Shown: positions 1,264-61,601 of the stretch, piece by piece | How positions within the stretch are numbered: the first letter of the stretch is position 1 | Layout of the letters: every line of letters starts with the position of its first letter | NCBI GenBank assembly: GCA_949317995.1 | Contig: OX439045.1 | Coordinates: 3,744,174 to 3,808,173, forward strand | Length of the DNA stretch: 64,000 nucleotides | From: Acholoe squamosa | Taxonomy: Eukaryota; Annelida; Polychaeta; Phyllodocida; Polynoidae | Reading direction: 5' to 3' | The notes under the pieces: model-generated | What the model saw: only the letters and a program-made list of their open reading frames with translations | What the model was told of the DNA's origin: nothing | Databases searched by the model: none | Translations under genes and position numbers: made by a program

Positions 1264-1312
1264 CTTGCCAATAGTAACTTCCCACAGCACCAATAGCCAT
1301 CTTCTTGCCGTC
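1264..1312 (-). CDS. Integrin alpha, exon 6 (49-bp micro-exon); gene continues past the left edge
   Basis: Bounded by a tgttgcag acceptor and gtaaga donor, this 49-bp exon encodes DGKKMAIGAVGSYYWQ plus one base of the next Gly codon. GSYYWQG is the integrin alpha motif GSFYWQG of the third blade. It enters in phase 0, as both alternative exons 5 require, and leaves in phase 1. The remaining propeller, leg, transmembrane and tail exons must lie beyond position 1. The donor is followed within about a dozen bases by the GA/GACA microsatellite. Confidence 0.9.
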
Positions 1313-6405: not shown

Positions 6406-6671
6406 GTAATTAATTTTCATTAATTTTCTCTATTAAATACGTTTGACATTGTCCGCCATATTGATTATACATGGTACGGGACTCACCATGGCCGTGGGCC
6501 AGAACATGTATAGAGAAGCATATGCCGCAGGGAGCATTTATTATTTTAACTCTGCCTTATGCACTATTCCTTTGAATAAGGTGTTGCAGCAAATTTCTAG
6601 TACTACATATGTATGAAAAGTAAAGTGTGTTTCTTATTAAATAACTATTTATAACAATTTTCTTTTTTTAG
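6406..6671 (+). other. Intron of the recombinase gene
   Basis: 266 bp, gtaatt...tttttttag, AT-rich. It joins phase 1 to phase 1 and restores a GAC (Asp) codon. Frame continuity across the junction is the support. Confidence 0.8.
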
Positions 6672-16209: not shown

Positions 16210-16271
16210 GTTGGTTAGAGCGGCCGACATGCCGGCTTGACAGAAGCCTTGTCTGTGATAGCTCGATCCAC
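16210..16271 (-). CDS. Integrin alpha, candidate alternative exon 5B (canonical, cysteine-bearing)
   Basis: 62 bp with acceptor tgctttcag and donor gtgcgt. After the G of exon 4 it reads GGSSYHRQGFCQAGMSAALT then N, ending in phase 0. GFCQAGMSA matches GFCQGGFS of alpha-V and YCQGGFS of alpha-5, so this is the canonical version and supplies the disulfide partner. It lies 18.9 kb from exon 4 and 18.3 kb downstream of exon 5A. Splicing 5A directly to 5B would shift the frame and run into TAA within 5B, so the two should be mutually exclusive. Confidence 0.85.
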
Positions 16272-16492
16272 CTGAAAGCAGCACATAGAAGAGAAAAGGC
16301 AGAATCAATACAAAGCACAATATAAAGTTAAATGTGATCCCAAAGCATTGAGAGGCATATGGGTGAAGACATTAGAATAGTCACAGACACTGCATGAACA
16401 TCTGGATTTTAGCCATTTAAAAAAAGTGCAAAGCTGTTTTTTTTTTGTTCTGAAATATCAAGCAAAATCAAAACAAGCACTTAAGCCGTGTG

Positions 16493-16676
16493 TCCACATG
16501 GCGATAGAATTTGGTGCTAACAAAATTGCCGACTACAAAAACCCTTTTATCATCTATTTGCGACGATAATATCTAACATGTTTGATTTTTGTTTTCGGTA
16601 ATCGACGACAAAAGTGTTTTTTTTTCGTCGTATATTTTGTCGGTACCAATTCTATCACCCTGTAGACACAAGGCTA
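16493..16676. mobile_element. Small MITE, ends AGCCGTGTGTCCACATGGCG
   Basis: Left CGATAGAATTTGGT and right ACCAATTCTATC plus GTAGACACAAGGCT are inverted. About 184 bp with internal inverted GACGACAAAA/TTTTGTCG-type motifs. It lies about 220 bp upstream of exon 5B on the gene strand. Confidence 0.7.
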
Positions 16677-16679
16677 TAG

Positions 16680-17195
16680 AAGACAAAGCATGATCAGGGT
16701 GACCAAAACTGACTAGGAGTGTGTGAATGTATTAAGACAGGCAAAGACACTGCATAAGAATCTGAGTTTGATTAAACAGCTGGAAGCGAAGTCTAAAGCT
16801 GATTAATCTTTTTTCTGCAATATCAAGAATCAATCAGGACAGTTGGACAGGTGCATGTGCATAAGAAACAAGTACAGAAATTGCATCTGGATTTAAGCAT
16901 TTTCAAGCAAGATGGACATAGCTTAGTAATTATGACTTTCTCCCTGCAATATTTAACAACTTTAAAAAATTAAAGCCATTTTTCCAATTGAAGTTCCCCA
17001 AATATATTCAGGTTTCAGAGGCCAGTGACCCAATGAATTCAACCAAAGTTCTTCAATGACCAATGAATTCAACCAAAGTTCTTCAACATAGAGCCAAAAA
17101 AAGACCATTAAGTTTTGCTTGATCTTAAACTTTCTTATATCCAGGTGTTCATGCAATGAGAGAGTGAAGAAACATTTGTGTCCACAGTGATGTGT
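16680..17195. other. Intronic stretch with one short tandem duplication
   Basis: CCAATGAATTCAACCAAAGT plus CTTCAA occurs twice in a row at about 17031-17088. Otherwise nothing recognisable. Confidence 0.5.
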
Positions 17196-17199
17196 AAAC

Positions 17200-17465
17200 A
17201 TTGACCCTTTAAGCACTGCTGATCCAGGAGTGCATCATGCCTATTGTTCGTCAAGATGCACCGATGAAGTGCTGGCAGGACTGCTTGCCAGCACTTCATA
17301 AGAGCATCATTCTGACCCTGCGGGGATGATATACACAAACTCCCAGAGGGTCGACATGATGCTCCAATGAAGTACTAGCAAGCAGTTTTGCCAGCAATTC
17401 ATTGGTGCATCATGACGACCAATGGGCGTGATGCATGAATGTATTAGCGGCCCTGTAAGGGTTTA
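17200..17465. mobile_element. Rep-A copy
   Basis: From GACCCTTTAAGCACTGCTG to GTATTAGCGGCCCTGTAAGG. Has two hairpin cores (AGTGCTGGC...GCCAGCACTTC and AGTACTAGC...GCCAGCAATTC). Confidence 0.8.
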
Positions 17466-17695
17466 CTTCAGGAAGCTGGAATCAGAAGCACTGAAGTGTT
17501 ATAGTGCATGGTTATTAGATCAAGCAGAATCATCAATAATACATCTTCTGGTGCAAGGAAATTGCACAGATATACTCATTATATTGTGCAATCAATGTCA
17601 TATATAACATCTATCGTTTTTAGATTGGTGTTCGCAACAGACGTCCATAATGTTGAGACATATATGCAGTAAAAGTTCTTTATAAGAAGTTTGGC

Positions 17696-18370
17696 TAGGC
17701 CATAAAAAGGTTTGGTTTCCGGTCACCTGACCTACCTCAGCCAAACAGGGCCGACCTCAGAATTTTTTAAGAATTTTTTAAAGAATTTTTCATAATTATT
17801 TATATTTTTCATTATTATTTATATTAATTTCATATTTTTATTATTTTGATATTTTCCCTGCACCAAGGCAAAGAATCCATGATCTCTAACCAAGTTCTCT
17901 ACATTTTGGCTGGTATAATAGTTAAAATGGAATGCCTGTGATTGTTTTTGATAATAACAAATCAATGTCGGCCAAAATATGACTCAGTGGAAAAAAAAAT
18001 CAAAAAAAAAAAAAATCCGACCTACTTAGGGAGTGATCACTTTTTAACAACAAAGGGGGGGCTGGTGGGTTTGAGGAGGGGGTCAGAATTTTTTCAACCC
18101 CTTGACCAGGGGGGTCAGAATTTTTTCAACCCCTTGACCAGGGGGGTCAAAATAATTTCACCTGTTTTCAGTGGAAAACCCCGCGTGTTACTATAGGCTA
18201 AAAGTGGACATTCGCGCGCGATTTTTGTCCCTTATGGGGGGGTTGAAAATTTTTTTTCGCACGTCCACACGCAAACCAACCAGCCCCCCCCCCCCCCCCC
18301 GTTGTTAAAAGATTAAAAAATTATCACTCCCTTACCTCAACTTTTTGGACCATATTATAAGGAGACCTTG
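17696..18370. mobile_element. Rep-E element split by a Rep-F insertion
   Basis: GGCCATAAAAAGGTTTGG, TTTCCGGTCACCTGACC and GGGCCGACCTCAGA open it. The far part CCTCAACTTTTTGGACCAT resumes after the insertion. The internal GGCCAAAATATGACTCAGT block matches the copy at 34.3 kb. Confidence 0.8.
18029..18331. mobile_element. Rep-F element (Harbinger-like MITE) inserted into Rep-E
   Basis: Inverted ends GGGAGTGATCACTTTTTAAC / AATTATCACTCCC with an AACAAC/GTTGTT inner match, and TTA on both sides (18026-18028, 18332-18334). The 34.3-kb and 45.7-kb Rep-E copies show the uninterrupted sequence. 303 bp, G-rich and C-rich blocks inside, no ORF. Confidence 0.85.
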
Positions 18371-18371
18371 C

Positions 18372-19200
18372 TTATAAGGAGCAAATTCTCTTTTCAAGAA
18401 TAATTTTCTTACATGTAGCATAAATCCTTGCGTAGAGGGCGCACCTCACATATATATAAGACACACCCTGCATGAGTTGAAGAGGAGCTGAGTCATACTA
18501 TTTCCGATGTTTTAAAATAACATAGGAGATCAATACGGAGCTGATATTATGTGTCGTGTGCAGGGTATGTATTGGTACAGTATAGGCTATATTCTATATG
18601 AGAGTATAGAGAGTTGTTGTGCCCCTATGCATTAGTATATTCTGTAAATAGAGAGTTGATATGTGTTGTCTCTCCATATGTTAGTCAGTCCCTAATCCCC
18701 TTATGTAACCCCCACAGCTGGAGTTATCTCCCACATTGCCCAACCAAAGTCCTACACCAACACACCAGACACCTTCCTTACACCATGAGCTACTCATGAG
18801 TTCCTCATTGCCTCATAGGTGAGCAGCTCACCGAGGTCAGATCTCTTGGCTTTGGCCAAAATCTATGTTACTACTTCTGTTCTACAACATTTGATGGAAT
18901 ATGGCTTATGTCATTTTCCTTAAGTCTACTTGCGGCTTATGAGCTGAATTTTCAGAGGATTCACCCATATGAAAAGTAGATGCATGTTTTTTACAGTGTG
19001 ATTTCCCAACATTGTCCACATTACAAAGTATTTGGTCAAACTTTCAGCATTCCCCTTGATCAGATTTGGAGCTGCTCTATGCACTGCTCTATGCCTATGA
19101 GCCGCCTGTGAGCTGCTCTGACCGCTGATACAGACTTCACAGGGCATGGAGTTGGCCTGAGGCAGGGCTCTGACATGATGGGGCCCTCAGGTACTTACTC
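18372..19200. other. Intronic stretch, no recognisable feature
   Basis: A short tandem hint (AGAGAGTTG...TATGTG repeated around 18600-18670) only. No exon-like motif found on either strand. Confidence 0.45.
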
Positions 19201-19202
19201 AA

Positions 19203-19404
19203 CAACTCCTTTAGCACTGTAAGGGGCCAGTAATACAGGAGTGCATCATGCCCATTGGTCGTCATGATGCACCAATGAAGTGCTGATGGGTCTGCTCACC
19301 AGCACTTCATGACTGCATCATGACGAACATCTTGGAGTGTATCAATTGTGAAGGGTCATAATGCATGAAAGTAGCCCTGGGGATAAACTCACCAATACTG
19401 CATT
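19203..19404. mobile_element. Rep-A copy adjoining the 34-bp array
   Basis: AAGGGGCCAGTAATACAGG start and a GATGCACCAATGAAGTGCTG hairpin. It grades into the tandem array through CATTAATGCATATGACCGA. Confidence 0.75.
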
Positions 19405-20460
19405 AATGCATATGACCGATGGGCATGATGCATTGATGCATCATGACGACCGACGGGCATGATGCATTGATGCATCATGACAACCGACGGGCATGATGCA
19501 TTGATGCATCATGACGACCGACGGACATGATGCATGGATGCATCATGACGACCGACGGGCATGATGCATGGATGCAACATGGCGACCGACGGGCATGATG
19601 CATTGATGCATCATGACGACCGACGGGCATGATGCATTGATGCATCATGACGACCGAGGGACATGATGCATGGATGCATCATGATGACCGACGGGCATGA
19701 TGCATCAATGCATCATGACGACCGATGGGCATGATGCATTGATGCATCATGACAACCGATGTACATGATGCATAGATGCATCATGACGACTGATGGGCAT
19801 GATGCATTTATGCAACATGGCGACCGATGGGCATGATGCATTGATGCATTATGACGACTGATGGGCATGATGCATTGATGCATCATGACGACCGATGGGC
19901 ATGATGCATTGATGCATCATGACGACCGATGGGCATGCATGCATAGATGCATCATGACGACCAATGATGCATTAATGCATCATGACGACCAATGGACATG
20001 ATGCATTGATGCATCATGACGACCGATGGGCATGATGCATTAATGCATCATGACGACCAATGGGCATGATGAATTAATGCGTCATGACGACCGAAGGGCA
20101 TGATGCATTGATGCATCATGACGACCGATGTACATGATGCATAGATGCATCATGACAACTGATGGGCATGATGCATTAATGCAACATGGCGACCGATGGG
20201 CATGATGTATTAATGCGTCATGACGACCGATGGGCATGATGCATTGATGCATCATGACGACCGATGGACATGATGTATTAATGCATCATGACGACCGATG
20301 GGCATAATGCATTGATGCATCATGACGACCCATGGGCATGATGCATTGATGCATCATGACGACCCATGGGCATGATGCATTGATGCATCATGACGACCCA
20401 TGGGCATGATGCATTAATGCATCATGACGACCGATGGGCATGATGTATTAATGCACTTAG
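19405..20460. repeat. 34-bp satellite array built from a Rep-A module
   Basis: About 31 units; each unit is GCATCATGACGACCGATGGG followed by CATGATGCATTGAT. The unit is an interrupted palindrome (TGCATCATG ... CATGATGCA). Variant positions are ACGACC/ACAACC and GATG/GACG. Confidence 0.97.
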
Positions 20461-20740
20461 GGCTCTTCGACGCTAACCCTGTAGGCCTAGGATCTATAAC
20501 TAAGGAGTGTGGATCAATTGAATGTAGCAAAGGGGCGGATCCAGGAGAAGAGAACCTTAGTTGTTTTTTATCTGGAAACATTTTGAATGTATATAGAGAT
20601 TCTTGTGTCTTCCAAGGAGCTCTTGTGAGTTACTCACTAGGCCCCCAGTCCTGTATCGTGCCATCGGAATGGCAGAAGCAGTATTCATGCATCATGACAA
20701 CAAATGGACGTGAATTTTGATGCGATCCTTAAAGGTTTAG
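20461..20740. mobile_element. Rep-A tail with unrelated insertion
   Basis: After the array, unique sequence (20461-20690) is followed by a last ATTCATGCATCATGACAACA and GATCCTTAAAGGTTTAGG, a Rep-A-like end. Confidence 0.45.
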
Positions 20741-21695
20741 GGAAACCCCCGAAGCAGCCCATGCCCTAGAGGCGGGGCAACTTCATAAGGTCACTAAGTG
20801 AAATCTGATGTCGATAATGATATAAAGATACTAAATAGTTGGATGCATATAACGATCTAATAAGACCCCCATTTGGAGACGTAATGCTAATAATCTACAG
20901 AATTAAGTCAGCTTTTGAAGTACATGCCCTCCTGTGGGTGGAGGTTATACCATGGAGGTTTTACATACTCTGTGGATATACTAATCAGTTTACTTTGAAC
21001 CAAAAAGGACGAGGATGGGAGTTATTCTGCAAGTTGATATTGGCCTGACCCCGGGACTGACCATATGTATACCATGAGTATTGATACATAATATTTTTTG
21101 GGTAAAATTAAAAATTGAAACACTGTGAATGGATTGCATTCAGTCTGCTAAGATGATAAATTATCTAAAACACTTCTGCCACTTCAAAATCTTTATTCAA
21201 TGCCTACAAAAGAAGATGTGTGCGTAATTAATATGGGTGAATGTAGCCTGAGACACCTCCTCCAGTGTCTGCCAGTGGTTCATTAGGTGGTATGTTGTGC
21301 ACTTTGCAAGCAGCAGGTTTGTTCTGCAGTCTAAAATGCGCAATGCTTGCAGCAGGTTCTGTCAATTGAGGACAACTCTGTTGATATGACGTCACAGGCT
21401 GCCGAATAAATTTAAAAGATTTGTGTAAAAAAGATCTACCCTAGTTTCTGGAGATTTCATCATTACTGGTGTTTATTCTTTATGTATTGCTGGAGATTTC
21501 TCTTGAGCTTTCTCACACACAATGTGTTCATTGTTGTAAGTACTCAACATATCCAACAATGATTTTGATTGGATCTGGACCTCTCTTTTATCATTTAGAC
21601 CATGTTACCAGAAACCTTTTCCCTCCTTTGGGCCTGTGTTTGTTGGAATAGGGGAGGAGTTTTGGAATGAAGACTTCATCTGAAACTGGGCAGCA
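20741..21695. other. Intronic stretch, no recognisable feature
   Basis: No exon, tandem array or family member recognised. Short AT-rich runs only. Confidence 0.45.
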
Positions 21696-21699
21696 GCAG

Positions 21700-22000
21700 C
21701 TTTGATAAACGGAGCGTCAGACTAACACCAGCCCCGCCCCCAAAACACGCCCTATACCAGAACCCACCCCCCCTCCCCCGCCCTGCACCTTCCATGCTAC
21801 AGCCACATAACCTGCGATCCCATATCAGGAAAATATCCCTGGAACCATGAACAAGGGGTCTTTCACCCCGGATTTCCACAAAAAAAAAAAGATTTTCTTG
21901 TCATAAAAGTGCATGGAACTGAGGTACTTTTAGAAAGGATGGAACGCAGGTTGTGTACCTGTGCCATGGAGAGTGGTGCAGGGACCAGGAGAAGTCCCCA
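21700..22000. mobile_element. Element with ends related to the one at 30704-31488
   Basis: GCACCTTCCATGCTACAG and GAACGCAGGTTGTGTACCTG are inverted partners (left CCACATAACCTGCGATCCC). It provides the uninterrupted form of the site that a Rep-C copy occupies at 31185. Confidence 0.55.
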
Positions 22001-22582
22001 TCCACCCTCATCCCTTACTGTAGACTGCCAAGGTAGGGCACTCACTGCTAAACCCTAAATGCTAAAGAATTCCAATGATGTGTTAAACCAACTGTGTTAT
22101 ATGTGTTTCCTCAACCCTTTCTAACCCCCTAGTAACATCGCTACACAGTACATTCTCACTATTTCGACTAAAGTATGAGAGAAGAGAACATTTAATTTAA
22201 GAAAGAAAGAAGGAGAAAGTAGACAGTTAAATAAAGGAAATGAATAAATCATGAATTCAGATTGCACAATGGTCAGTGCCTGAATTAATTATTGATTATT
22301 GATTTTCCCCTTCCTGGAATATAGAAATTTGGTCAAGGCTGATGAGAATTGACAATATAATTTCAACTCTGCAGTTAAGAAAACCTCAACTCTCAGCAGT
22401 TTACTTTTATAAATAATTAAATGGCCATGGACATGTGTTTAAATTTACCTAGACACATTTTCCATCAACCACAATTATTAACGCTTCATTCATTTTGGCC
22501 TGTCATGTCCTCATCCGTCCGTATTCCGCAGGCAAAAAAAAACATCTTCTATACACCTGTACCGTATTGACATGTATAAACG

Positions 22583-25080
22583 CCAACACCAGGTGCGGCT
22601 TATAGACCATCTCAAACACCAGGTACGGCTTATAGATCAGACACGAGGTGCGCCTTATAGAACATTTCAGACACCAGGTGCGGCTTATAGACCATCTCAA
22701 ACACCAGGTACGGCTTATAGATGAGATACCAGGTGCGCCTTATAGACCATTTCAGACACCACGTGTGGCTTATAGACCATTTCAGGTACGGCTTATAGAC
22801 CATTTCAGACACCAGGTGCGGCTTATAGACCATCTCAAACACCAGGTACGGCTTATAGATCAGACACCAGGTGTGGCTTATAGACCACTTCAGACACCAG
22901 GTGTGGCTTATATGCCATTTCAGACACCAGGTGCGGCTTATAGACCACTTCAGACACCAGGTGTGGCTTATAGACCATTTCAGACACCAGGTGTGGCTTA
23001 TGGACCATTTCAGACACCAGGTGCGGCTTAGAGATCATTTCAGACACCAGGTACGGCTTATAGACCATTTCAGACACCAGGTGCAGCTCATAGACCATTC
23101 CAAACACCAGGTGTGGCTTATGGACCATTTCAGACACCAGGTGCAGCTTAGAGATCATTTCAGACACCAGGTGTGGCTTATAGACCATTTCAGACACCAG
23201 GTGCAGCTTATAGACCAGACACCAGGTAAGGCTTATAGACCATTTCAGACACCAGGTAAGGCTTATAGACCATCTCAGACACCAGGTGCAGCTTATAGAT
23301 CATTTCAGACACCAGGTGTGGCATATACATCATTTCAGACACCTGGTACGGCTTATCGACCATTTCAGACACCAGGTGCAGCTTATAGACCATTTCAGAC
23401 ACCAGGTGCAGCTTATAGACCAATTCAGACAACAGGTGTGGCTTATAGATCATTTCAGACACCAGTTGCGGCTTATAGACCATTTCAGACACCAGGTGCG
23501 GCTTATGGACAATTTCAGACACCAGGTACAGCTTATAGATCGTTTCAGACACCAGGTGTGGCTTATAGATCATTTCAGACACCAGGTGGGGCTTATAGAC
23601 CATTTCGGACACCAGGCGCGGTTTATAGACCATTTCAGACACCAGGTGTGGCTTATAGAGCATTTCAGACACTAGATGCAGCTTATAGACCATCTCAGAC
23701 ACCAGGTGCAGCTTATAGACCATTTCAGACACCAGGTGCGGCTTAGAGATCATTTCAGACACCAGGGACGGCTTATAGACCATTTCAGACACCAGGTGCA
23801 GCTCATAGACCATTTCAGACACCAGGTGTGGCTTATAGACCATTTCAGACACCAGGTGCAGCTTATAGACCAGACACCAGGTAAGGCTTATAGACCATTT
23901 CAGACACCAGGTAAGGCTTATAGACCATCTCAGACACCAGGTGCAGCTTATAGATCATTTCAGACACCAGGTGTGGCTTATACATCATTTCAGACACCAG
24001 GTACGGCTTATCGACCATTTCAGACACCAGGTGCAGCTTATAGACCATTTCAGACACCAGGTGTGGCTTATAGATCATTTCAGACACCAGTTGCGGCTTA
24101 TAGACCATTTCAGACACCAGGTGCGGCTTATGGACCATTTCAGACACCAGGTGCAGCTTATAGATCATTTCAGACACCAGGTGTGGCTTATAGATCATTT
24201 CAGACACCAGGTGTGGCTTATAGACCATTTCGGACACCAGGTGTGGCTTATAGATCATTTCAGACACCAGTTGCGGCTTATAGACCATTTCAGACACCAG
24301 GTGTGGCTTATGGACCATTTCAGACACCAGGTGCAGCTTATAGATCATTTCAGACACCAGGTGTGGCTTATAGATCATTTCAGACACCAGGTGTGGCTTA
24401 TAGACCATTTCGGACACCAGGTGCGGCTTATAGATCATTTCAGACACCAGGTACGGCTTATGGACCATTTCAGACACCAGGTGTGGCTTATAGACCATTT
24501 CAGACACCAGGTGCGGCTTATAGACCATTTCAGACACCAGGTGCGGCTTATTGACCATTTCAGACACCAGGTGCGGCTTATAGACCATTTCAGACACCAG
24601 GTGCGGCTTATAGACCATTTCAGACACCAGGTGCGGCTGATAGACCATTTCAGACACCAGGTGCGGCTTATAGAACATTTCAGACACCAGGCGCGGCTTA
24701 TAGACGATTTCAGACACCAGTTAACGGAAGATCATCAGTAAACCGAAAGCTAATGATGTTTAAAAGAAAAAAAAAAGAAAAAAAAAGGTGCGGCTTATAG
24801 ACCATTTCAGACACCAGGTGCGGCTTATAGACCATTTCAGTCACCAGGTGCGGCTTATAGACCATTTCAGACACCAGGGTCGGCTTATAGACCATTTCAG
24901 TCACCAGGTGCGGCTTATAGACCATTTCGGACACCAGGAGCGGCTTATAGACCATTTCAGACACCAGGTGCGGCTTATAGACCATTTCAGACACCAGGTG
25001 CGGCTTATAGACCATTTCAGACACCAGGTAAGGCTTATAGACCATTTCAGACACCAGGTAAGGCTTATAGACCATTTCAT
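22583..25080. repeat. 30-bp minisatellite, array 1
   Basis: About 80 units of 30 bp: GCTTATAGACCATTTCAGAC then ACCAGGTGCG, with variants at a few positions (GTG/GCG/GCA, ACC/ATC). It is interrupted at 24721-24787 by non-repeat sequence ending in an A-rich run. A shortened unit (CCAGACACCAGGTAAGG) recurs at ~23216 and ~23871, marking a 655-bp higher-order repeat of 22 units. Because 30 is a multiple of three, all frames stay open; these are not genes. Confidence 0.97.
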
Positions 25081-25081
25081 A

Positions 25082-25640
25082 TAGGATTCGCCTAGACAAG
25101 GGGTGAGGCTTATAGCTCAGGTTTTGATACCATAGATGCAGCACTAAAATCGCAATTTTCAAGCCACAACTGTAGCCTATAGCTTTCTCCTGAACTCAGG
25201 GCGCGGCTTACATACTCGGGGTAGGTGTTGAGTGCGTTAACAGGGTACTACGACATACATCATATGTAGCAAGGCGGACTAACAGATGTCTCATCAGAAG
25301 TGTATAATCTACTCCTGACCCCCCCCCACCCCCTCTGACTCCACCCCAGAGATATCTCTAAGATACCCAATACCAGGGGTATATAGGCCTTATGTAACGC
25401 CATCATGGCATCTATCAGCAAGAAGGAAGGGTGAGGGATGGGGGTAGGGTGCAGCAGGCCCAATCTGTGAATGGGCAAAGAAGGGGTTCAGCAAGCTTAA
25501 CCCGTTAATGGCCGCAGCAGTGCATCATGTATTTATGATGTACCATAGACCAGCACTTCATTGCATCATGACGAGCATTGACGACCAGTGGACATGATGC
25601 CCCCCGCCCCTCCCCCCCACCCCCCCAGGGGAGGGGATGA
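25082..25640. repeat. Array flank, first copy of a segmental duplication
   Basis: Near-identical to 27037-27605 (landmarks GGATTCGCCTAGACAAGG, GGCGCGGCTTACATACTCGG, ATCTCTAAGATACCCAATAC). It includes a Rep-A fragment at ~25495-25600 (TTAACCCGTTAATGGCCGC). The copies differ mainly in C-run lengths. Confidence 0.95.
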
Positions 25641-25649
25641 CTTCATATG

Positions 25650-27033
25650 TTCCATTTCAGACACCAGGTGCAGCTTAGAGATCTTTTCAGACACCAGGTG
25701 TGGCTTATAGACCATTTCAGACAACAGGTGCAGCTTATAGACCAGACACCAGGTAAGCTTATAGACCATTTCAGACACCAGGTAAGGCTTATAGACCATC
25801 TCAGACACCAGGTGCAGCTTATAGATCATTTCAGACACCAGGTGTGGCATATACATCATTTCAGACACCAGGTACGGCTTATCGACCATTTCAGACACCA
25901 GGTGCAGCTTATAGACCATTTCAGACACCAGGTGCGGCTAATGGACCATTTCAGACACCAGGTACAGCTTATAGATCGTTTCAGACACCAGGTGTGGCTT
26001 ATAGATCATTTCAGACACCAGGTGGGGCTTATAGACCATTTCGGACACCAGGTGCGGTTTATAGACCATTTCAGACACCAGGTGTGGCTTATAGAGCATT
26101 TCAGACACTAGATGCAGCTTATAGACCATCTCAGACACCAGGTGCAGCTTATAGACCATTTCAGACACCAGGTGCGGCTTAGAGATCATTTCAGACACCA
26201 GGTACGGCTTATAGACCATTTCAGACACCAGGTGCAGCTCATAGACCATTTCAGACACTAGGTGTGGCTTATAGACCATTTCAGACACCAGGTGCAGCTT
26301 ATAGACCAGACACCAGCTGCGGCTTATAGACCATTTCAGACACCAGGTAAGGCGTATAGACCATCTCAGACACCAGGTGCAGCTTATAGATCATTTCAGA
26401 CACCAGGTGTGGCTTATACATCATTTCAGACACCAGGTACGGCTTATCGACCATTTCAGACACCAGGTGCAGCTTATAGACCACTTCAAACACCAGGTAT
26501 GGCTTATAGATCATTTCAGACAAAAGTTGCGGCTTATAGACCATTTCAGACACCAGGTGCGGCTTATGGACCATTTCAGACACCAGGTGCAGCTTATAGA
26601 TCATTTCAGACACCAGGTGTGGCTTATAGATCATTTCAGACACCAGGTGTGGCTTATAGACCATTTCGGACACCAGGTGTGGCTTATAGATCATTTCAGA
26701 CACCAGTTGCGGCTTATAGACCATTTCAGACACCAGGTGTGGCTTATGGACCATTTCAGACACCAGGTGCAGCTTATAGATCATTTCAGACACCAGGTGT
26801 GGCTTATAGATCATTTCAGACACCAGGTGTGGCTTATGGACCATTTCAGACACCAGGGTCGGCTTATAGACCATTTCAGTCACCAGGTGCGGCTTATAGA
26901 CCATTTCGGACACCAGGTGCGGCTTATAGACCATTTCAGACACCAGGTAAGGCTTATAGACCATTTCAGACACCAGGTAAGGCTTATAGACCATTTCAGA
27001 CACCAGGTAAGGCTTATAGACCATTTCATATAG
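25650..27033. repeat. 30-bp minisatellite, array 2
   Basis: About 46 units with the same variant order as parts of array 1, including the shortened unit at ~25743 and ~26307. Ends at the same AAGGCTTATAGACCATTTCA | TATAGG boundary as array 1. Confidence 0.97.
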
Positions 27034-27036
27034 GAT

Positions 27037-27605
27037 TCGCCTAGACAAGGGGTGAGGCTTATAGCTCAGGTTTTGATACCATAGATGCAGCACTAAAATC
27101 GCAATTTTCAAGCCACAACTGTAGCCTATAGCTTTCTCCTGAACTCAGGGCGCGGCTTACATACTCGGGGTAGGTGTTGAGTGCGTTAACAGGGTACTAC
27201 GGCATACATCATATGTAGCAAGGCGGACTAACAGATGTCTCATCAGAAGTGTATAATCTACTCCTGACCCCCCCCCCCCCCACCCCCTCTGACTCCACCC
27301 CAGAGATATCTCTAAGATACCCAATACCAGGGGTATATAGGCCTTATGTAACGCCATCATGGCATCTATCAGCAAGAAGGAAGGGTGAGGGGTGGGGGTA
27401 GGGTGCAGCAGGCCCAATCTGTGAATGGGCAAAGAAGGGGTTCAGCAAGCTTAACCCGTTAATGGCCGCAGCAGTGCATCATGTATTTATGATGTACCAT
27501 AGACCAGCACTTCATTGCATCATGACGAGCATTGACGACCAGTGGACATGATGCCCCCCGCCCCTCCCCCCCACCCCCCCCCCCAGGGGAGGGGATGACT
27601 TCATA
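27037..27605. repeat. Array flank, second copy of the segmental duplication
   Basis: Repeats 25082-25640 at an offset of 1955 bp, so the duplicated unit is flank plus array 2. Confidence 0.95.
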
Positions 27606-27657
27606 TGTTCAAGATACACATGTGTGCGACTGACAAGGAGACTTCTGAGGGTGTATT

Positions 27658-28005
27658 CAGGGTGGCATGATATTTGAATGCAGCCTTGGCGAGTTACTCT
27701 CAGGGTGGCATGATACTCAAATGCAGCCTTGGTGAGTTACTCTCAGGGTGGCATGATACTTGAATGCAGCCTTGGCGAGTTACTCTCAGGATGGCATGAT
27801 ACTTGAATGCAGCCTTGGCGAGTTACTCTCAGGATGGCATGATACTTGAATGCCGCCTTGGCGAGTTACTCTCAGGATGGCATGATACTTGAATGCAGCC
27901 TTGGCGAGTTACTCTCAGGGTGGCATGATACTTGAATGCAGCCTTGGCGAGTTACTCTCAGGGTGGCATGATACTTGAATGCAGCCTTGGCGAGTTACTC
28001 TCGGG
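27658..28005. repeat. 43-bp tandem array from a Rep-A module
   Basis: Eight units containing GGCATGATACTTGAATGCAG and CCTTGGCGAGTTACTCTCAG, equivalent to the TGAATGCAGCCCTGGCGAGT module of Rep-A. Confidence 0.95.
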
Positions 28006-28179
28006 ATGGCTACATCCATGCATCACTCATGCATTCGCAGCATCGCCTTTCCTTTTAGAAATTATCGTGAAAAAGAATTTCATGAATAAGTATTTAAATA
28101 CTCCTTGATTGGCCTTTTTATTTCATTATTGAGATATTATCGAACGTATTCTTTGGGTTTTTTTTTGGGGTTTTTTTTT

Positions 28180-28320
28180 TGCCTTATGCCCATTGGTCGG
28201 CATGATGCATGGGTGCAGCTCTCAGCATGATGCATCAATGAAGGTATCAATGAGCCTGCTCACCAGCACTTCATTGAATCATGACGAGCATTGACGACCA
28301 ATGGACATGATGCCCCCCCC
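28180..28320. mobile_element. Rep-A fragment
   Basis: TGCCCATTGGTCGGCATGAT, then CACCAGCACTTCATTGAATC and GACCAATGGACATGATGC. It ends in a C-run shared with the two array flanks (25600, 27560). Confidence 0.65.
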
Positions 28321-28995
28321 CACCCCACCCCCCCCCCAGGGGAGGGGATGACTTCATATGTTCGAGGGGGTGTGCGGATGGGCCTCTGACAACCCTTACC
28401 CTTGCTGAGAGGGATTTTTGGGCAAAAGGAGACCCTTGCTGAGAGGGATTATGGTCCAAAATGTTCACAGCTTTTTACCTTGAATAAAACTGACCACATC
28501 CGAAAACTGGCACTTGTCTGGACATGCAGGGTCAAAATATGAGAAAAGTGATCCTTGGTGAGAGGGGTTTTGGCCAAAAAGTGGCCTTGCCAGCCGCACA
28601 CCCCTGTCAGTGACATATAGAGAGTGACCCCCTAAGCAACCTAGCACCAGCGGCCCTTAGAGGTTATAAAAGAGATATCATTTGTATACATGCATGGGTG
28701 GGCTGGTTAGGGTTGTAGGATTCTAGGAAGCTGATGGTTTAGGATGGGGTTTGGGGCTGGTGGTGGTGATTCAGAGATTAGTCGGTAGGGGGCGGGATGA
28801 CGGGGTAATGAGGGATGAAGATTAGCCCCGACACGTGACTACCACGTGTCCTATCTCAGCCAGGAGCCGCTCCTAGTAACTCTCTCTCACCTGGCGGCAA
28901 TCTTTGGTACTACCCCCTCCCCCCCCCCCCCGTATACACACACAGAGCACCCTTTTGCACAACCCTTCTTTCCTCCAGTCACTTTGCCAAAACTA
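28321..28995. other. Mixed stretch with a short direct repeat
   Basis: GACCCTTGCTGAGAGGGATT-type motifs occur at about 28395, 28431 and 28550. A Rep-A end (CAGCGGCCCTTAGAGGTTA) lies near 28650. No coding exon recognised. Confidence 0.5.
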
Positions 28996-29352
28996 TTTGA
29001 GGGCCGCATGATGCATTCTACATGTATATTTTTTTTTTGTGTGTTATGAGGCACCAATGCACTGCTGGTGCGTCTATTCACCAGACCTATATCTGGCCTA
29101 ACTCTGAGGTCTTTCATGGCAAACCTTGAAGCTAAAAAAACTCTAAATGACTTTGGGCGATTCATGCATGTTACCTGCCCAGGCTATGTATAAATGCATC
29201 ACCTTAATCCTATAGGTTTGATACACTCTCATAGGGTCGGCATGATGCTCCAATGAAGTGCTGGCCAGCAGACTCATCAGCACTTCATTGGTGCATCATG
29301 AGAACCAGGGGGCATGATGCACTCCTGTATCAGCGGGCCTTAAAGGGTTAAC
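28996..29352. mobile_element. Rep-A copy
   Basis: GGGCCGCATGATGCATTC at left, CAGCGGGCCTTAAAGGGTTA at right, and a hairpin core GAAGTGCTGGCC...CATCAGCACTTC. The internal part is diverged. Confidence 0.7.
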
Positions 29353-29400
29353 ATTCCTCAAACCTTTATGTTACTCTTACATCACTCTACCCCTTCTCTT

Positions 29401-29649
29401 ACAGGTCTAGACCCCTAAAATCGACAGTGTGACATGGCCTTTTCTTAAAATCGACAAGGGACATAGAGCTCTAGTGACAAGGACAGGGGAAAAAAAAAGA
29501 TAATGACATGGGACATGGTCCTTTCTTAAAATTGACATGTGATATGGAGCTAAGTGACAAGGTGAGAGGAAATTACAAATTTAGTGACATGTGACATGGG
29601 CTTTTCTTAAAATCGACAAGTGACATGGGGACCCCCCATCTAGACCCCC
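29401..29649. mobile_element. Rep-C element, copy 1
   Basis: Starts ACAGGTCTAGACCCC and ends CATCTAGACCCCC. The 6-bp duplication TCTCTT is at 29395-29400 and 29650-29655. Internally, three to four TTAAAATCGACATGTGACAT-like modules alternate with AGTGACAAGG modules. Confidence 0.9.
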
Positions 29650-29879
29650 TCTCTTACCTGTTCACAGAGGGGATGTTTCTACTTTGTAACATTTGGGTTG
29701 GAACAAACTGATTCAATGGAGGATGATATATTCCTTACCCTACCAAAGAATGCACACACATGTGTATTTCTCCCTGAGTCTACTCTAGGGAAGTAACCAG
29801 TATAGAAAAATGGGGCCTGAAAACTTGAGGAATGATCGAGGAGGGAGGGGGGTGAATATATATGTGAGCCCTATTCCCC

Positions 29880-29957
29880 ACCAAAATAAATAAATAAATA
29901 AATAAATAGATAAAATAAATATTAAATGAATAGATAAATAAATAATTAATAAATACA
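29880..29957. repeat. (AAAT)n microsatellite
   Basis: AATA tetramers with interruptions (ATAGATAAA, ATTAAATGAA). Confidence 0.95.
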
Positions 29958-30703
29958 CACTCAGCCACAATTGTAAACAGGCTATAAATGCCCCTGCTAT
30001 GCATACAGCAGGATCCACATTGGGTCAATGGTTTTATACCTACAGCAGCTACTACTGTATTCCAGAATAAGTAGTTCTCTTCTGTCAGACCTTTGAGGAG
30101 GGCTGACAGTGTATATACTAGTACCAAGGCCCATTATATGAGATATTATCATGAACCCTGCCCTGTCATACTAGATAAATATACTACTATAAAAGTAAGA
30201 CACAGTTAAATTGAAGGGGGGGTGCAAAAGTGCAAGGTGGTTGCCCCCCCCCCCACTGACCCCACCCCCCACCAATAAAAAAATGTGCTTCTTCTGCCTG
30301 TGTATACAAGGATATACCACCCATGTTAGCTGCCCCCTGGCGGTACTAAAAGTGTACTATCCTGGGTTGTAGCGGGTTGTGGTGGTTAACGGGCAATAAG
30401 AGCAGGTAATGGTTACGGAGTAGGATTGAGATGGTCACCTACAGGTACTCGGGTTAGGTAGACCTACAGGAGGAAACACCTGGTTTAAGTCTATTCAACC
30501 TATAATACAAAATAGGGTGCATCCACTTCCTTGCTGGTTCATGATAATCAGATGGGAAAATGTTCATATTAAAGATTAACTTCTGAATCCCACACACACA
30601 GGGTTTAAAAATGCCCGCCAGGCAAGACGCAAGAATCTTCGATAGGATTTTCCTACCAATTGCCTCTCACCACCCCGTTCCCAACATCCTACCTAGATCA
30701 GCC

Positions 30704-31488
30704 CATGAACCCCGGTCCCAGCACTTTCCATACTACAGGTACACAACCTGCGTTCCCAAAAGCAGGAAATAAGGGTAATCTTTCTCTCAATTCCAATGTC
30801 CCTAGAATCAGGAAAAAGAGGTCTTTTCCCCAAATGAACTCCATGGATTTGAGGAAAAAGGGGTATTTTTGAGGGCTAAATCCATGGAATTGGAAATATG
30901 GGTAATTTTGGTAGCCCATGCAGGGAATCTCCCTCTAGTTAGCCTTAAGGCATCAAACTGATGCCATACATGTATATTGAATTCATAGTGTTTAATAGGA
31001 CAATTCTCCCATATTTTATTTTCAGTCTATGATAAGGGGGCTGTTGAAAAAAATGTCAGTGTTTTGTCAAAAAAAGGGGTGTTCTTTTACCCTGAAAAGT
31101 CAACGTTTTTCTACAAAAAGGGGTCTTTTTGAGCATAAAGGTCCATGGAAATGGGGTACTTTTTGAAAGGAGGGAACGCAGGTTATGGGTCTAGACCCCT
31201 AAATTTGACAGGGTGAAATGGCCGTTTTCTTAAAATCGACATGTGACATGGAGCTTAGTGACAAGGACATTGAAAGGAAAAAGTTAGTGACAAGAGACAA
31301 GGCCTTTCCTTAAAATCGACATGTGACATGAAGCCTAGTGACAAGGACATGGGAAAATAGAAATTTAGTGACAAGTGACATGGCCATTTCTTAAAATCGA
31401 CATGTGACATGGGGACCCCCCATCTAGACCCCCCAGGTTGTGTACCTGTACGGTGGAGAGTGCAGGGACTGGGCCATGAACTCTGTTC
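30704..31488. mobile_element. DNA element with ~50-bp inverted ends, carrying a Rep-C insertion
   Basis: Left CATGAACCCCGGTCCCAGCA and GGTACACAACCTGCGTTCCC. Right GAACGCAGGTT, interrupted, then AGGTTGTGTACCTGTACGG and CAGGGACTGGGCCATG. The interior has AAAAGGGG-type blocks without an ORF. Confidence 0.7.
31185..31433. mobile_element. Rep-C element, copy 2
   Basis: 249 bp, ATGGGTCTAGACCCC...CATCTAGACCCCC, 6-bp duplication CAGGTT at 31179-31184 and 31434-31439, inside the right end of the 30704-31488 element. Confidence 0.92.
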
Positions 31489-31669
31489 CATGTCACACAC
31501 ATGACATGTAGAGTCAGGAATGGGGTCTGTGACGTAACGTCACATACAGCGTTCTTGACGTAACGTCATTACAACAGATTCTGCAACGCCAACACGATTC
31601 TACACGTCCCTATAGCAACTGAACCAAACCAGACAAATCTAAGCCAGCTTCAGTTTGATAGCTAGCATC

Positions 31670-31945
31670 TTTATGGGCCGCTGATGCACGAGTACATCAT
31701 GCCGGCATGGTGCACCAAGCATGATGCACCAATGAAGTGCTGGTGAATCTGCTTCAACCTTGTCAGCAGTTCATAATGTTCATTGGTGCGTCTTGCCAAT
31801 CCTAAGGGAATGTATCAGCCCTGTAGAGTCGGCATGATGCATGAATGCAGTCTGGTGAGTTACTCAAACGGACTGCATTCATGCATCATGACGACCCATG
31901 GGCATGATGCGCCCGTGCATTCATCAGCGGATTAGAGGCCGTGGG
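31670..31945. mobile_element. Rep-A copy
   Basis: GGGCCGCTGATGCACGAG at left and TTCATCAGCGGATTAGAGG at right. Contains GAATGCAGTCTGGTGAG...ACGGACTGCATTC. Confidence 0.75.
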
Positions 31946-32279
31946 AGGAGGAATATTAGCTCATGGGTTGTAGTCGACATCTTAATAGATTTTTAAATTT
32001 GCTGCCTGCTCCCCCATATTTCAATGTCATGTTAAAACAGATGGCATCTTTGAAGTACAGGTAACCATGACGACCATATGGCTATAAGGACATATCCTAC
32101 CCCCAGCTTCTAATACACTGCCGTGACAGGTTGTAAATAAACGTCATGTCAGACGTGGCAGTTTGACGGCTGCATAGTGAAATGAAATTATGCCACCCTT
32201 GGATCTAATACCCGGTATACCGGTAGTAAATAAACATCAGTTATGGCCTAGTAGGCCTACTTTGAGTGTTGCGTCGTGA

Positions 32280-32375
32280 ATTGATGAAACTGTGCCTTTG
32301 GTCAGCATGATGCATGAATGCAAACCTCGTGATTCTACTGGCAGGAGATGTATTTAAATGCATTATGCTGACTTA
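32280..32375. mobile_element. Rep-A fragment
   Basis: Only GGTCAGCATGATGCATGAAT and TAAATGCATTATGCTGAC remain. Confidence 0.4.
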
Positions 32376-33854
32376 AGGATGGCCATAAGGCACTAATGGG
32401 GGGGGGGCTAGGGCTGAATTGAGTTCTGGGCCAATCTTTACCAGGAATGACCTTTATCTTTGCCATTTTAAGGAAATTATTAATATTTGGAAGACATGTC
32501 CCCCCGTCAGTTGCTAAGGCCGTGTGCACCATGGCAACAATGCATCATATGACCCTCACAGGGTTAGATATGTGTGTGTGTGGGGGGGGGGGATCTAATC
32601 AGCCCCCCCCCCCCTACGTACCATACTCCTGTATCCCCTGGTGGCTGGTAGGAGAAACAAAATGACGTAACGTTACCGTGAGGGGACGCTACGTTAATCA
32701 GGTTCTGGCTGGTTGCCGCGTGTACAACATGAAGAGAGAGGACAACCAGGGTACCAGCTGTATCTATCTACCTTTCCTCTCAAGCCATAACACAGGAATA
32801 CTGCACACTGCGACTGTATAGCATAATATAGCAGTTTATGAAATTATGAGAAAAAGTTTGGAACTTCTTGCCTTGTAGATTAAGGTTCTGTTGTACAAAG
32901 TAGACTTTGAGTAGTGATATAGATTGTCAGAAAAAAAAAGAAAGAAAACAGCATTTTAACACAGGCATGTTCATATGATATAATACATATATAGATTATA
33001 GAGAAAGGATCGGCTAAAAGAGGAATAATTATGTGGGATGGTAAAGGCTATGCTTGAGACATGGTGTCAGATCTGGTCAGATGGTGATGGGCGTCTGCCG
33101 CAGGATCGACCAAGAACCAAGTGCCTGTATCAAAGCTCTTATTAATGGTAATTAAAACTATGCAAGGTTGGTGCAATATATTCAGAGGCGACATAGGTAG
33201 ACAGGGCAGCGTGTGAACAAGTGTTAACCCGTTAGGCTTTATACAAGCATAATTTCATCTAATAGCCCTCACTACATATGGCCATATGCAAATTAGAAAA
33301 AAAAAGAAGCATTGTCCATTGTGATATTATACCAGTTTTCGATGTCACATTGACAGCCAGATTATTAAGCAATAAAGAATTGCTCAACCCCAGAATGACA
33401 GCTTGGCTTACTACCCAGTAAATTGTCGCATCTGTCGCCATGATTGGTCATCAATGGTGACTCCTTTTTGAGTGACAACTCATTCCGTCATCTTTTGCCA
33501 CTGTGTGTTAGACTCATGTGGCATAGCAATTGCTTTTCCTGGTGATCTTGTGCTATAACGACGTCATGTTCCATCTAGCAACATGTGTGAGCCACTTCAC
33601 ACAGGTTGACCAGGACTCACAACAATTTGCTGGGTAGGGTGTAGGATGTGTAATGGCATAGAATTAGACTCCAGAAGCAACATTAGTCTCCGTCTGCATT
33701 CTGAATCCTTTTGTGTGAAAGGTGTAGATTATGATGTGCATTCCTTAATCATATTGAATCATGTGCATGCACCAGTAAATGCTCAATTTAGCTAATCAGT
33801 GAGTTTCAGGTCAGTGATTCTGTGCATGGCGAGTGGTTTAAGTTTAACCAATTT
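32376..33854. other. Intronic stretch with homopolymer runs
   Basis: G- and C-runs at 32398-32407, 32581-32592 and 32605-32614; otherwise unique-looking. No exon of the integrin pattern found here on the minus strand. Confidence 0.45.
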
Positions 33855-34063
33855 AAGGACGACATAGTGTTATTATGCACTTTGCCCGTTTTCGTATCAT
33901 TGTGGCTCAATGCAGCTCTGGTAAGTAACGCAGCAATGCAGAGGTGCATTTAAGCGCCCGGGCACTCATTAATTCCAATACCCCTGTTACGCCTTATTCA
34001 AGACGAGTGCTTACTCGAATACTGTTTAGTACTTATGAATGAGTTCAGTACCTCTGTAATCAC

Positions 34064-34406
34064 CAAACCTACCTCACCCAAAGAGGGCTGACCTCAGATT
34101 TTTTGAGGAAATTTTCATAATTTTTCCAATAAAATCTTCATTTTTTCAAAATTTTTCATATTTTTGATACTTCTAGAACTTCTTTGTTTCCAAATAAAGA
34201 ATCCACGATTCTTTCTCAAGCTTTCTATCAACTGACTGGTATAATAGATTAAATGGATTATCTGTGAGGTTTATTAGTAATAATGATTCAATATTTCGGC
34301 CAAAATATGGCTCAGTAAAAAAAAAAAGAAAAAAAAAAGAAATCCGACTTTCCTACCTCAACTTTTTGGACCATGTTACCGGAAACTTAGAATTTTTTTT
34401 GGCCTT
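34064..34406. mobile_element. Rep-E element, copy 2 (no Rep-F insertion)
   Basis: CCAAACCTACCTCACCCAAA at left; CCTCAACTTTTTGGACCAT, GTTACCGGAAAC and TTTTTTTTGGCC at right. It shows the undisturbed form of the site occupied by Rep-F at 18029. Ends about 190 bp from exon 5A. Confidence 0.75.
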
Positions 34407-34593
34407 ATTCACGACCAGTACTTTTTTTAGACCCCAGTGCTTAAACGAGTAATTACGGAACCCTTCACATGTAATGAGCCTTTAAGCAGTATGTCACCCT
34501 TAAATGATTTTAAAAAGCAAGTATGCTTGTGATTGCTGATTGCCATTGACAGCAGTTGACAGCTATTGACAGCATGCTAAAGAACACACTCAC

Positions 34594-34673
34594 GGAAGTC
34601 ACGACAGCAGACATGCCGAACTGAGCCTTGGATTGTTTTTGAAAGGCGTCCGGTTCATTTGTAAAATCTACTT
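34594..34673 (-). CDS. Integrin alpha, candidate alternative exon 5A (cysteine-free)
   Basis: 80 bp between a tttttatag acceptor and a gtgagtgtg donor. With the G left by exon 4 it reads EVDFTNEPDAFQKQSKAQ then FGMSAVVTS, ending in phase 0. FGMSAVVTS aligns with GMSAALTN of exon 5B and with the GFSxDFT strand of integrin alpha chains, so this looks like a paralogous copy of the same exon. It has no cysteine, leaving the SPC cysteine of exon 4 without its usual partner. Length is 2 modulo 3, like exon 5B, so skipping both or including both breaks the frame. It lies only 485 bp after exon 4. It could instead be a decaying duplicate, but splice sites and frame are clean. Confidence 0.75.
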
Positions 34674-35158: not shown

Positions 35159-35279
35159 CGTCCATACAGGGGCTGTAGAACACTGATTGTTCCCCAGTAG
35201 GGGGCACCACGTAACATGCGCCCACTGGTTCACGTTTGTCTAACCTCTCAGAGAAGTAAACATACCGCGGGGCACAGCC
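35159..35279 (-). CDS. Integrin alpha, exon 4
   Basis: 121 bp, acceptor atttcag, donor gtaagt. It encodes GCAPRYVYFSERLDKREPVG, ACYVVPPTGEQS and VFYSPCMD, ending in phase 1 with a single G. The CAPRY...EPVGAC pair and the YSPC cysteine match the RGD-type integrin alpha pattern (CAPLY...EPVGTC...YAPC in alpha-V). The final cysteine (SPC) normally pairs with a cysteine in the following exon. That matters because two different following exons are available. Confidence 0.92.
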
Positions 35280-35931: not shown

Positions 35932-36041
35932 CACAATAGATCCGTTGGGCCCTGAGCTGGCCACACTGGCACCAAACCACTGATGGGACTTCTCCTCCTT
36001 GGGTTCATAACGTCCTGGTCCCACATACTTTATATTGTTTC
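35932..36041 (-). CDS. Integrin alpha, exon 3
   Basis: 110 bp with a tttccttag acceptor and gtgagt donor. The reading frame entered in phase 1 gives NNIKYVGPGRYEPKEE, then KSHQWFGASVASSGPNGSIV. HQWFGAS is a signature of integrin alpha blade 2. The exon ends in phase 0 with GTG, so the next exon continues GCAPRY. Confidence 0.92.
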
Positions 36042-39660: not shown

Positions 39661-39705
39661 TTATTGCTTTAATGATAAGGTATATGTCATGTATTTAGTG
39701 CTTAA

Positions 39706-41734: not shown

Positions 41735-42034
41735 CTTAAGATGGGACTGGCACGCATCCTTCCTGACAACCCTAGTGTGATGAAGTTTTCAACCTAGGCA
41801 CCTACGTTGTCTGTGCCAGGTCTGACATATTGATATTAAATCTTACAGGTTTTGCCTCATTCACTGAGGGCTGCAGGCATTCATGATAAGGGCACGTGTA
41901 GATAGTTTTATGAAATTGCAATACCACTTTTTTAATCTCCATGACATCCTATGAATTATTGTGTAAGTTATTATCTAATTCTTAAAAGAAAGATCTAAAA
42001 ATCTCATAAAAATTATAAAACTGAGAGTTCTTAC

Positions 42035-42156
42035 CTCTGTTGTCAAAAGGTACCAGTGTACAGGACTGGGTGGCGTCCAGGGGACACTTGTAGATGGCGC
42101 CACCGTTCTCTATGTTAGACTGGGATGTCTGTGTCTTAGGTGCACCCACCAATAAC
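42035..42156 (-). CDS. Integrin alpha, exon 2
   Basis: 122 bp, flanked by cacccacag acceptor and gtaaga donor. It encodes LLVGAPKTQTSQSNIENGG then AIYKCPLDATQSC and LVPFDNR, ending in phase 1. The GAPK and GAIYKC motifs and the small Cys-8-residue-Cys loop match propeller blade 1 of integrin alpha chains, where those two cysteines form a disulfide. The exon is an island between two multi-kilobase minisatellites (39706-41734 in the next intron, 43046-45160 in the preceding one). The introns on either side are about 16.3 kb (5') and 6.0 kb (3'). Confidence 0.92.
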
Positions 42157-45160: not shown

Positions 45161-45192
45161 AATATCATCCTATGGAGGTTACAGTGCAGGAG

Positions 45193-58436: not shown

Positions 58437-58639
58437 CAATTTTGTCTGGAGTCTGAATGTTGTGTCACAGAATATCCAAACATGGATCCTGGCTGGATGG
58501 CTCCAAACCCAGCCCCAACCCCACTCCTGGGGCTATGTATCACGGCCGTCCTTAGATCTACGTTAAATCCTGTCACTGCTATTACCCCCACACACATCCA
58601 CACCCACACCCAACCCACACAGCTACCCCACACTGCCAT
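58437..58639 (-). CDS. Integrin alpha subunit, first coding exon (signal peptide and start of beta-propeller)
   Basis: Read leftward, this exon encodes 67 residues plus two bases. It starts at the ATG at 58637-58639, followed by a hydrophobic signal-like stretch (MAVWGSCVGWVWVWMCVG). The mature-like start FNVDLRTAVIHSP matches the FNxDxR start of integrin alpha chains, and GSMFGYSVTQHSDSRQN is the first propeller strand. It ends AATTG|gtgagt. The split codon TG+G gives Trp and joins to LLVGAPK in the next exon, the family motif WLLVGAP. Integrin alpha chains are type I membrane receptors that pair with a beta chain and bind matrix ligands. The extended sequence most resembles the RGD-binding/PS2-like group (SHQWFGAS, EPVGAC, QGFCQAG), but orthology is not assigned. 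The start context is ordinary (cca before ATG, G after). No promoter is recognisable upstream. Confidence 0.9.
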
Positions 58640-60942: not shown

Positions 60943-61014
60943 TTGATACCACACTACCGCACCCGTACTTCAATGGGCAGGCTGCACTTCTGCATCAGTT
61001 TCCCTTAAAGGCTC

Positions 61015-61553: not shown

Positions 61554-61601
61554 CAGTAATGATACCATCATAGGCACCCAGTAGCAATAAAAACTCAGTA
61601 T

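Follow-up and report, generated by a model that had tools for sequence, protein, structure and literature searches.

Exons 5A and 5B, a candidate mutually exclusive pair at the ligand-binding rim of an alpha-V-like integrin gene in the annelid Acholoe squamosa

In Drosophila, exon 8 of alpha-PS2, an invertebrate integrin alpha of the RGD type, is an alternative propeller exon that alters the response to ligand. The X1 and X2 exons of ITGA7 are mutually exclusive and alter laminin affinity (PMC12564407). In ITGA8 of the abalone Haliotis gigantea, isoforms 1 and 2, obtained by Sanger sequencing from muscle, differ in exon 5, which a report of January 2026 termed a mutually exclusive exon (PMC13170236). 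A minigene containing exons 3, 4, 5-1, 5-2, and 6 of that gene yielded the product 3-4-5-2-6 from the wild type, whereas the variant yielded 3-4-6 and 5-1-6; the authors ascribed the phenotype to a decrease in isoform 1 together with an increase in a truncated isoform 3, isoform 2 being unchanged (PMC13170236). Here, we describe a stretch of 64,000 nucleotides from the polynoid annelid Acholoe squamosa (the window; GCA_949317995.1, contig OX439045.1, positions 3,744,174 to 3,808,173), whose minus strand carries the initial exons of an integrin alpha gene. The assembly comprises 1.48 Gb in 63 contigs, of which C11 contains the window, and the gene runs at least 27 kb further below the window. 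Two alternative exons, 5A and 5B, are present between exons 4 and 6 of this gene, and we consider it quite probable that they are a working mutually exclusive pair, which would give two receptors that share the Arg clamp but differ in their rims. The anatomy, reading frames, and homology of the two exons were observed directly.

Anatomy and reading frames of the two exons

The exons of the gene that lie in the window are as follows (window numbering; a slash marks a splice junction).
34594..34673, minus strand: exon 5A, EVDFTNEPDAFQKQSKAQFGMSAVVTS; 80 bp, without Cys, with a longer acidic/polar loop and a TAGAAG tandem acceptor
16210..16271, minus strand: exon 5B, GGSSYHRQGFCQAGMSAALTN; 62 bp, with an alpha-V-like loop that contains the second Cys
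58437..58567, minus strand: exon 1, the part encoding FNVDLRTAVIH...FGYSVTQHSDSRQN; found by motif scan and reading, donor TTG/GTGAGT, coordinates of this coding part only
42035..42156, minus strand: exon 2, LLVGAPKTQTSQSNIENGGAIYKCPLDATQSCTLVPFDNRG; found by tblastn with alpha-8 and alpha-V sequences
35932..36041, minus strand: exon 3, NNIKYVGPGRYEPKEEKSHQWFGASVASSGPNGSIV; found by tblastn and joined reading
35159..35279, minus strand: exon 4, GCAPRYVYFSERLDKREPVGACYVVPPTGEQSVFYSPCMD plus a G; ends in phase 1, carries the first Cys of the pair, found by tblastn and joined reading
1264..1312, minus strand: exon 6, DGKKMAIGAVGSYYWQG; 49 bp, with Tyr at the alpha-V Tyr178 column

The last base of exon 4 is the single G of a codon, and exon 6 opens in phase 0 (GAC GGC). 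Exons 5A and 5B are adjacent exons with equal phases on both sides, and either one alone preserves the frame; the joined readings 4-5A-6-7 and 4-5B-6-7 are both open. The joined reading 4-5A-5B meets a TAA inside 5B at residue 86, and the reading 4-6, with neither exon, meets a stop at residue 69, so products of double inclusion or of skipping are expected to be degraded. These readings bear out an earlier note on this DNA, which had claimed that inclusion of both exons or of neither breaks the frame and that 5A joined to 5B runs into a TAA within the latter; the coordinates, lengths, and phases that it gave for the two exons were correct on rechecking, as were its placing of them in the propeller and its statement that 5A contains no Cys and 5B contains one. 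The acceptor and donor of 5A are TTTTTTATAG/AAG and TCC/GTGAGT, respectively, and those of 5B are GCTTTCAG/GTG and AAC/GTGCGT, the donor of 5B being the weaker of the two as judged by eye. The acceptor of 5A is a tandem one (TAGAAG, of the NAGNAG form; 34676-34671, minus strand) that gives an exon of 80 or 77 bp, both lengths being 2 modulo 3, and through this tandem the initial Glu of 5A could be optional without a change of frame.

When exons 1-14 were joined with 5B and compared with Protein Data Bank (PDB) chains, alpha-V was the best match (E 6.7e-82, query residues 26-422), followed by alpha-5, alpha-4, alpha-IIb, and alpha-6. The propeller containing 5A also aligned with alpha-V from end to end (E 2.7e-76); a complete alpha-V-like propeller can therefore be read with either exon. 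Exon 4, 5A or 5B, and exon 6 align to alpha-V without an insert of the size of an I domain, and the matches to later segments of alpha-V and alpha-8 lie below the window. Judged by these alignments, the gene is an integrin alpha of the alpha-V/PS2 type without an I domain.

The loop at the rim and its counterparts in paralogues

The segment of alpha-V that corresponds to exon 5 extends from just past YAPC through GFCQGGFS, with Cys columns 142 and 155 and, between them, Asp150 (counted on alignments). In alpha-V, Cys142 and Cys155 pair with each other, and we take exon 5 to encode the propeller loop that lies between blades 2 and 3. Exon 5B keeps the second Cys, with 12 residues between the two Cys as in alpha-V. 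From the Cys of exon 4 to the GMSA strand there are 21 residues in the 5A form versus 15 in the 5B form, i.e. the loop of 5A is six residues longer, and since 5A contains no Cys, the Cys of exon 4 is left without a partner.

The I domain of vertebrate alpha subunits is inserted at about this loop. A 58-residue query containing 5A matched the I-domain integrins alpha-X and alpha-M weakly (E 0.035 to 0.14), from residue 18, which is inside the 5A loop, onwards; all matches of this short query in PDB were weak, with a best E of 0.0038.

The Arg of the ligand is bound in alpha-V by Tyr178 and Asp218 (PMC6889490), and alpha-V residues 145-151, in the same loop as that encoded by exon 5, lie within 6 Å of FGF2 in a predicted interface (PMC5482197). 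Counted on the alignment, the Tyr178 column is the Y of YYWQG in exon 6 and the Asp218 column is the D of YDYNYMG in exon 7. Both columns are thus in constitutive exons, and the swap would therefore alter the outer rim and leave the core Arg clamp unchanged. The earlier note had described a swap of the ligand-contact loop; this description stands for the loop at the rim, but it does not extend to the main Arg clamp, which is encoded by exons 6 and 7, and the residue of 5B at the Asp150 column is His. We infer that splicing may toggle ligand specificity at this rim.

Further integrin-alpha-like genes were found on the same contig, and exon 5 of three of them (P1, P2, and P3) was read by eye from three-frame translations, the gene at 8.12 Mb being left out.
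C11:60.02 Mb (locus L046): P3, exon 5 VEFYQERDSKSLEQYSKEGKAMLGFSADISP; exon 4 has FNPIIN where the window gene has YSPCMD
C11:56.11 Mb: P1, exon 5 YAYGQVGMAAHYV; by-eye reading
C11:56.09 Mb: P2, exon 5 YAYGQLGFSAAIS; by-eye reading
C11:8.12 Mb: a further integrin-alpha-like gene

The second Cys is absent at the exon 5 site of all three paralogues read. P3 shares with the window gene the exon 4-5-6 layout and phase, and its exon 5 is 5A-like and without Cys; unlike the window gene, it has one visible exon 5, flanked by short introns, and has lost the Cys of exon 4 as well. The loop of P3 (C11:60021001-60031000, about 1740-2480) has thus lost its exon 4 Cys and its exon 5 Cys as a matched pair. 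Nine pairs of exon 5 were compared by alignment score and shuffles (p values uncorrected). Against P3, 5A scored 42 (a score that 0 of 2000 shuffles reached; p 0.01 for the loop only) and 5B scored 27 (loop p 0.132), whereas against alpha-V, 5B scored 43 (loop p 0.0035) and 5A scored 20 (loop p 0.82). The scores of 5A and 5B were 38 and 39, respectively, against P2 and 23 and 24 against P1, and the score between 5A and 5B was 37 (loop p 0.058). Since none of the three paralogues has the second Cys and 5A is close to P3, the Cys-less loop can be regarded as a normal integrin design. Among the window gene and the three paralogues, two exon 5 candidates were seen (by eye) only in the window gene, which appears, from these readings, to hold both loop designs, i.e. 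the Cys-closed and the Cys-less one.

These comparisons bear on the alternative that survives best, which we nevertheless consider unlikely: both exons would be used, and the 5A form would be a low-activity or differently folded receptor, splicing then tuning the amount of active integrin and not the choice of ligand. The free Cys and the longer loop would, on this account, reduce folding, surface delivery, or beta pairing; 5A does remove the partner of a retained exon 4 Cys, and the abalone phenotype was ascribed to a loss of activity, with less isoform 1 (PMC13170236). On the other hand, the frame of 5A is open, its splice sites fit the consensus, and it retains the GMSA strand, features that, together with its likeness to exon 5 of P3, argue for a retained shape; the three paralogues, whose function is presumed, also do without this Cys. 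Because the paralogues lack it, loss of the disulfide need not mean instability of the propeller, whose stability the earlier note had expected splicing to toggle. A low-activity 5A form can coexist with a pair that gives two rims, and the probabilities that we attach to the various explanations consequently overlap and sum to more than one.

Exon 5A compared with chance and its likely use

On both strands of a 264-kb region, we looked for segments that have an open frame and a length of the right class and that are bounded by an AG acceptor with a pyrimidine-rich tract and a GT[AG] donor bearing G at +5. A total of 226 candidate segments (135 and 91 on the two strands) passed these splice and frame filters. 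When they were scored for the strand motif, 5B reached 32 (the motif was taken from 5B, which is therefore top by construction), 5A reached 25, and the next candidate reached 12. Of 5851 candidates obtained from 60 order-2 Markov copies of this region, none reached 25, the maximum being 15. When the requirement was relaxed to any AG followed by a GT or GC 40-140 bp away, 1320 segments were scored between exons 4 and 6; 5B and 5A again ranked first, the next segment reached 15, and there was no third exon 5 candidate.

These scans also concern the explanation that 5A is a relic, dead or seldom used, and that the gene in practice uses 5B alone, which we regard as improbable. A search of the genome with the 5A protein returned 5A itself as its sole match and so offered no test of conservation within the genome, and 5A lies 18.3 kb from 5B with tandem arrays in between, both of which would suit a relic. 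A neutral relic would, however, be expected to lose the features that 5A retains, namely 80 bp open in the required frame, an acceptor, a donor, and an intact strand motif, and isoforms that differ in exon 5 occur in abalone muscle (PMC13170236). A Pfam search with the 23-residue 5B peptide, which is too short for this purpose, gave no match. We attach very little weight to the explanation that the pair is chiefly an off switch acting through degraded transcripts from skipping or double inclusion, for although the 4-6 and 4-5A-5B readings stop early and an exon 5-skipping product was obtained from the abalone variant minigene, one non-triplet cassette would suffice for this purpose, a second, diverged in-frame exon would be superfluous, and both single-inclusion isoforms occur in abalone muscle (PMC13170236).

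Under the favoured reading of a mutually exclusive pair, each transcript would take one of the two exons. With 5B, the usual short, Cys-closed loop would be placed at the ligand-binding rim beside the constitutive Tyr178 and Asp218 columns, and with 5A, the rim would carry a longer, acidic/polar, Cys-less loop and the Cys of exon 4 would be unpaired. The same Arg clamp with different outer rims might then give a ligand preference or affinity that differs by tissue or stage, comparable to ITGA7 X1/X2. The use of 5A and 5B in this species and their effect on ligand binding are predicted here from the genomic sequence; the use of such an exon is supported from outside because the abalone muscle isoforms differ in exon 5 (PMC13170236).

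Several points weigh against this reading. The canonical form, 5B, is without the acid that alpha-V has at Asp150, which complicates a simple ligand story. An unpaired Cys, as in the 5A form, is unusual, and the 5A-like P3 has dropped the Cys of exon 4 too, which speaks against simply equating 5A with the design of P3. Because 5A is no closer than 5B to P2 (38 and 39), its likeness to Cys-less paralogues rests on P3. In abalone, exon 5 was skipped in the variant minigene, so that the choice need not always fall on one of the two exons (PMC13170236). As to the correspondence with the abalone gene, the abalone amplicon of exons 1-11 has a reverse primer that encodes LTKLGD, and the matching LGDI falls, by our count, in exon 12 here, an offset of one. 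When nine oligonucleotides printed in that report, primers and an intron probe (seven for ITGA8 and two for a control gene), were matched to the 264-kb region, none outdid the best of its 20 shuffles, and we rest no claim of orthology on them.

Other features of the locus were noted. Large tandem arrays are present at 19414-20455, 22586-27028, 27657-28010, 39701-41742, 43055-45168, and 61013-61557, with periods of 34, 30, 43, 46, 44, and 17, respectively; the first three account for approximately 5.8 kb of the distance between 5A and 5B. The intron that separates 5B from exon 6 contains an open frame of 401 residues (6641-7843, plus strand), which matches DUF3504 (E 1.2e-11) and, below the cut-off, the phage-integrase family (E 0.00013), and is probably a mobile-element gene of the tyrosine-recombinase type. 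The beginning of exon 2 is partly repeated, as AG/ATTGTTGGTTGGTGCACC..., which reads LLVGAPKTRHALENT by eye, at 42263-42220 on the minus strand, approximately 107 bases upstream of that exon; this copy diverges soon and has the look of a decayed duplicate. It was not reported by a search for direct repeats in the vicinity of exon 2, which yielded no repeat family. A short stretch on the minus strand below the window (window numbering, -9113 to -9130), CCTCAG/GTGGCGGGCTTCTTCTAG, is similar to the beginning of the VAVYFP exon and then runs immediately into a stop, and it is possibly a decayed copy of that exon.

Possible age and comparison with known systems

The mitochondrial contig of the assembly (C63) carries, by Pfam matches, nad3, a 343-residue subunit of the NADH antiporter type, cox1, cox2, a small frame, and cox3; the 343-residue subunit was taken as nad2 from its size and place, and the frame between cox2 and cox3, which has no Pfam match, was called atp8 by eye. 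In the annelid mitochondrial pattern, nad3 lies between nad1 and nad2 and atp6 is relocated between cob and nad5 (PMC2639372). The order on the contig agrees with this pattern, i.e. nad3 is beside nad2 and cox3 follows cox2 and atp8 without atp6 in between. Searches of the genome for a molluscan marker family (haemocyanin) and for an annelid one (linker) gave no match, which is uninformative as to the source, and a globin search gave 18 places.

The split of annelids and molluscs dates to more than 500 million years ago. If the abalone and annelid pairs are one and the same, the switch is older than this split and may have existed for more than 500 million years. We put forward only tentatively, as a possibility that falls somewhat short of even chances, that 5A/5B is an ancient spiralian switch kept in annelids and molluscs since before that split, by which one RGD-type gene provides both Cys-closed and Cys-less loops, the readable paralogues having fixed the Cys-less loop only. 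Which ligand an integrin binds is commonly put down to the alpha and beta genes that a cell expresses, and an exon swap at the rim would let one gene yield two receptors.

The abalone ITGA8 gene resembles the present one in being a spiralian integrin alpha gene that has, between exons 4 and 6, two alternative versions of exon 5 with a predicted effect on the propeller; it differs in coming from a mollusc instead of an annelid, and the identity of the exon is judged from exon number and gene type (PMC13170236). On these grounds, we infer that the annelid and abalone exon 5 pairs may be orthologous. Provided that exon 5 of the abalone gene corresponds to the exon described here, as the shared number suggests, the view of the earlier note that no cassette was on record at this site is out of date; among the matches listed in the open-licence PubMed Central (PMC) literature, no other report of an exon swap at this site was found. 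A mutually exclusive integrin exon 5 is already known in kind, from abalone, and the annelid case probably adds a second phylum. The annelid pair also offers an anatomical hypothesis, namely the loss of one disulfide together with a loop six residues longer, in terms that the main text of the abalone report does not use (0 occurrences of "cysteine" or "disulfide"; PMC13170236). What is new here, as read from the sequence, is the exon anatomy, the placing of the Arg-clamp residues in constitutive exons, and the His at the Asp150 column of 5B.

The remaining systems are more distant from the present one. Exon 8 of Drosophila alpha-PS2 is, unlike 5A/5B, an in-or-out cassette at a later site and involves no swap of two exons. 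The X1/X2 site of ITGA7 and ITGA6 also lies further along, between blades 3 and 4, and we know of no loss of a Cys pair there. These two genes belong, unlike the annelid gene, to the laminin-binding class, and they share with it the presence of alternative exons within the integrin propeller (PMC12564407).

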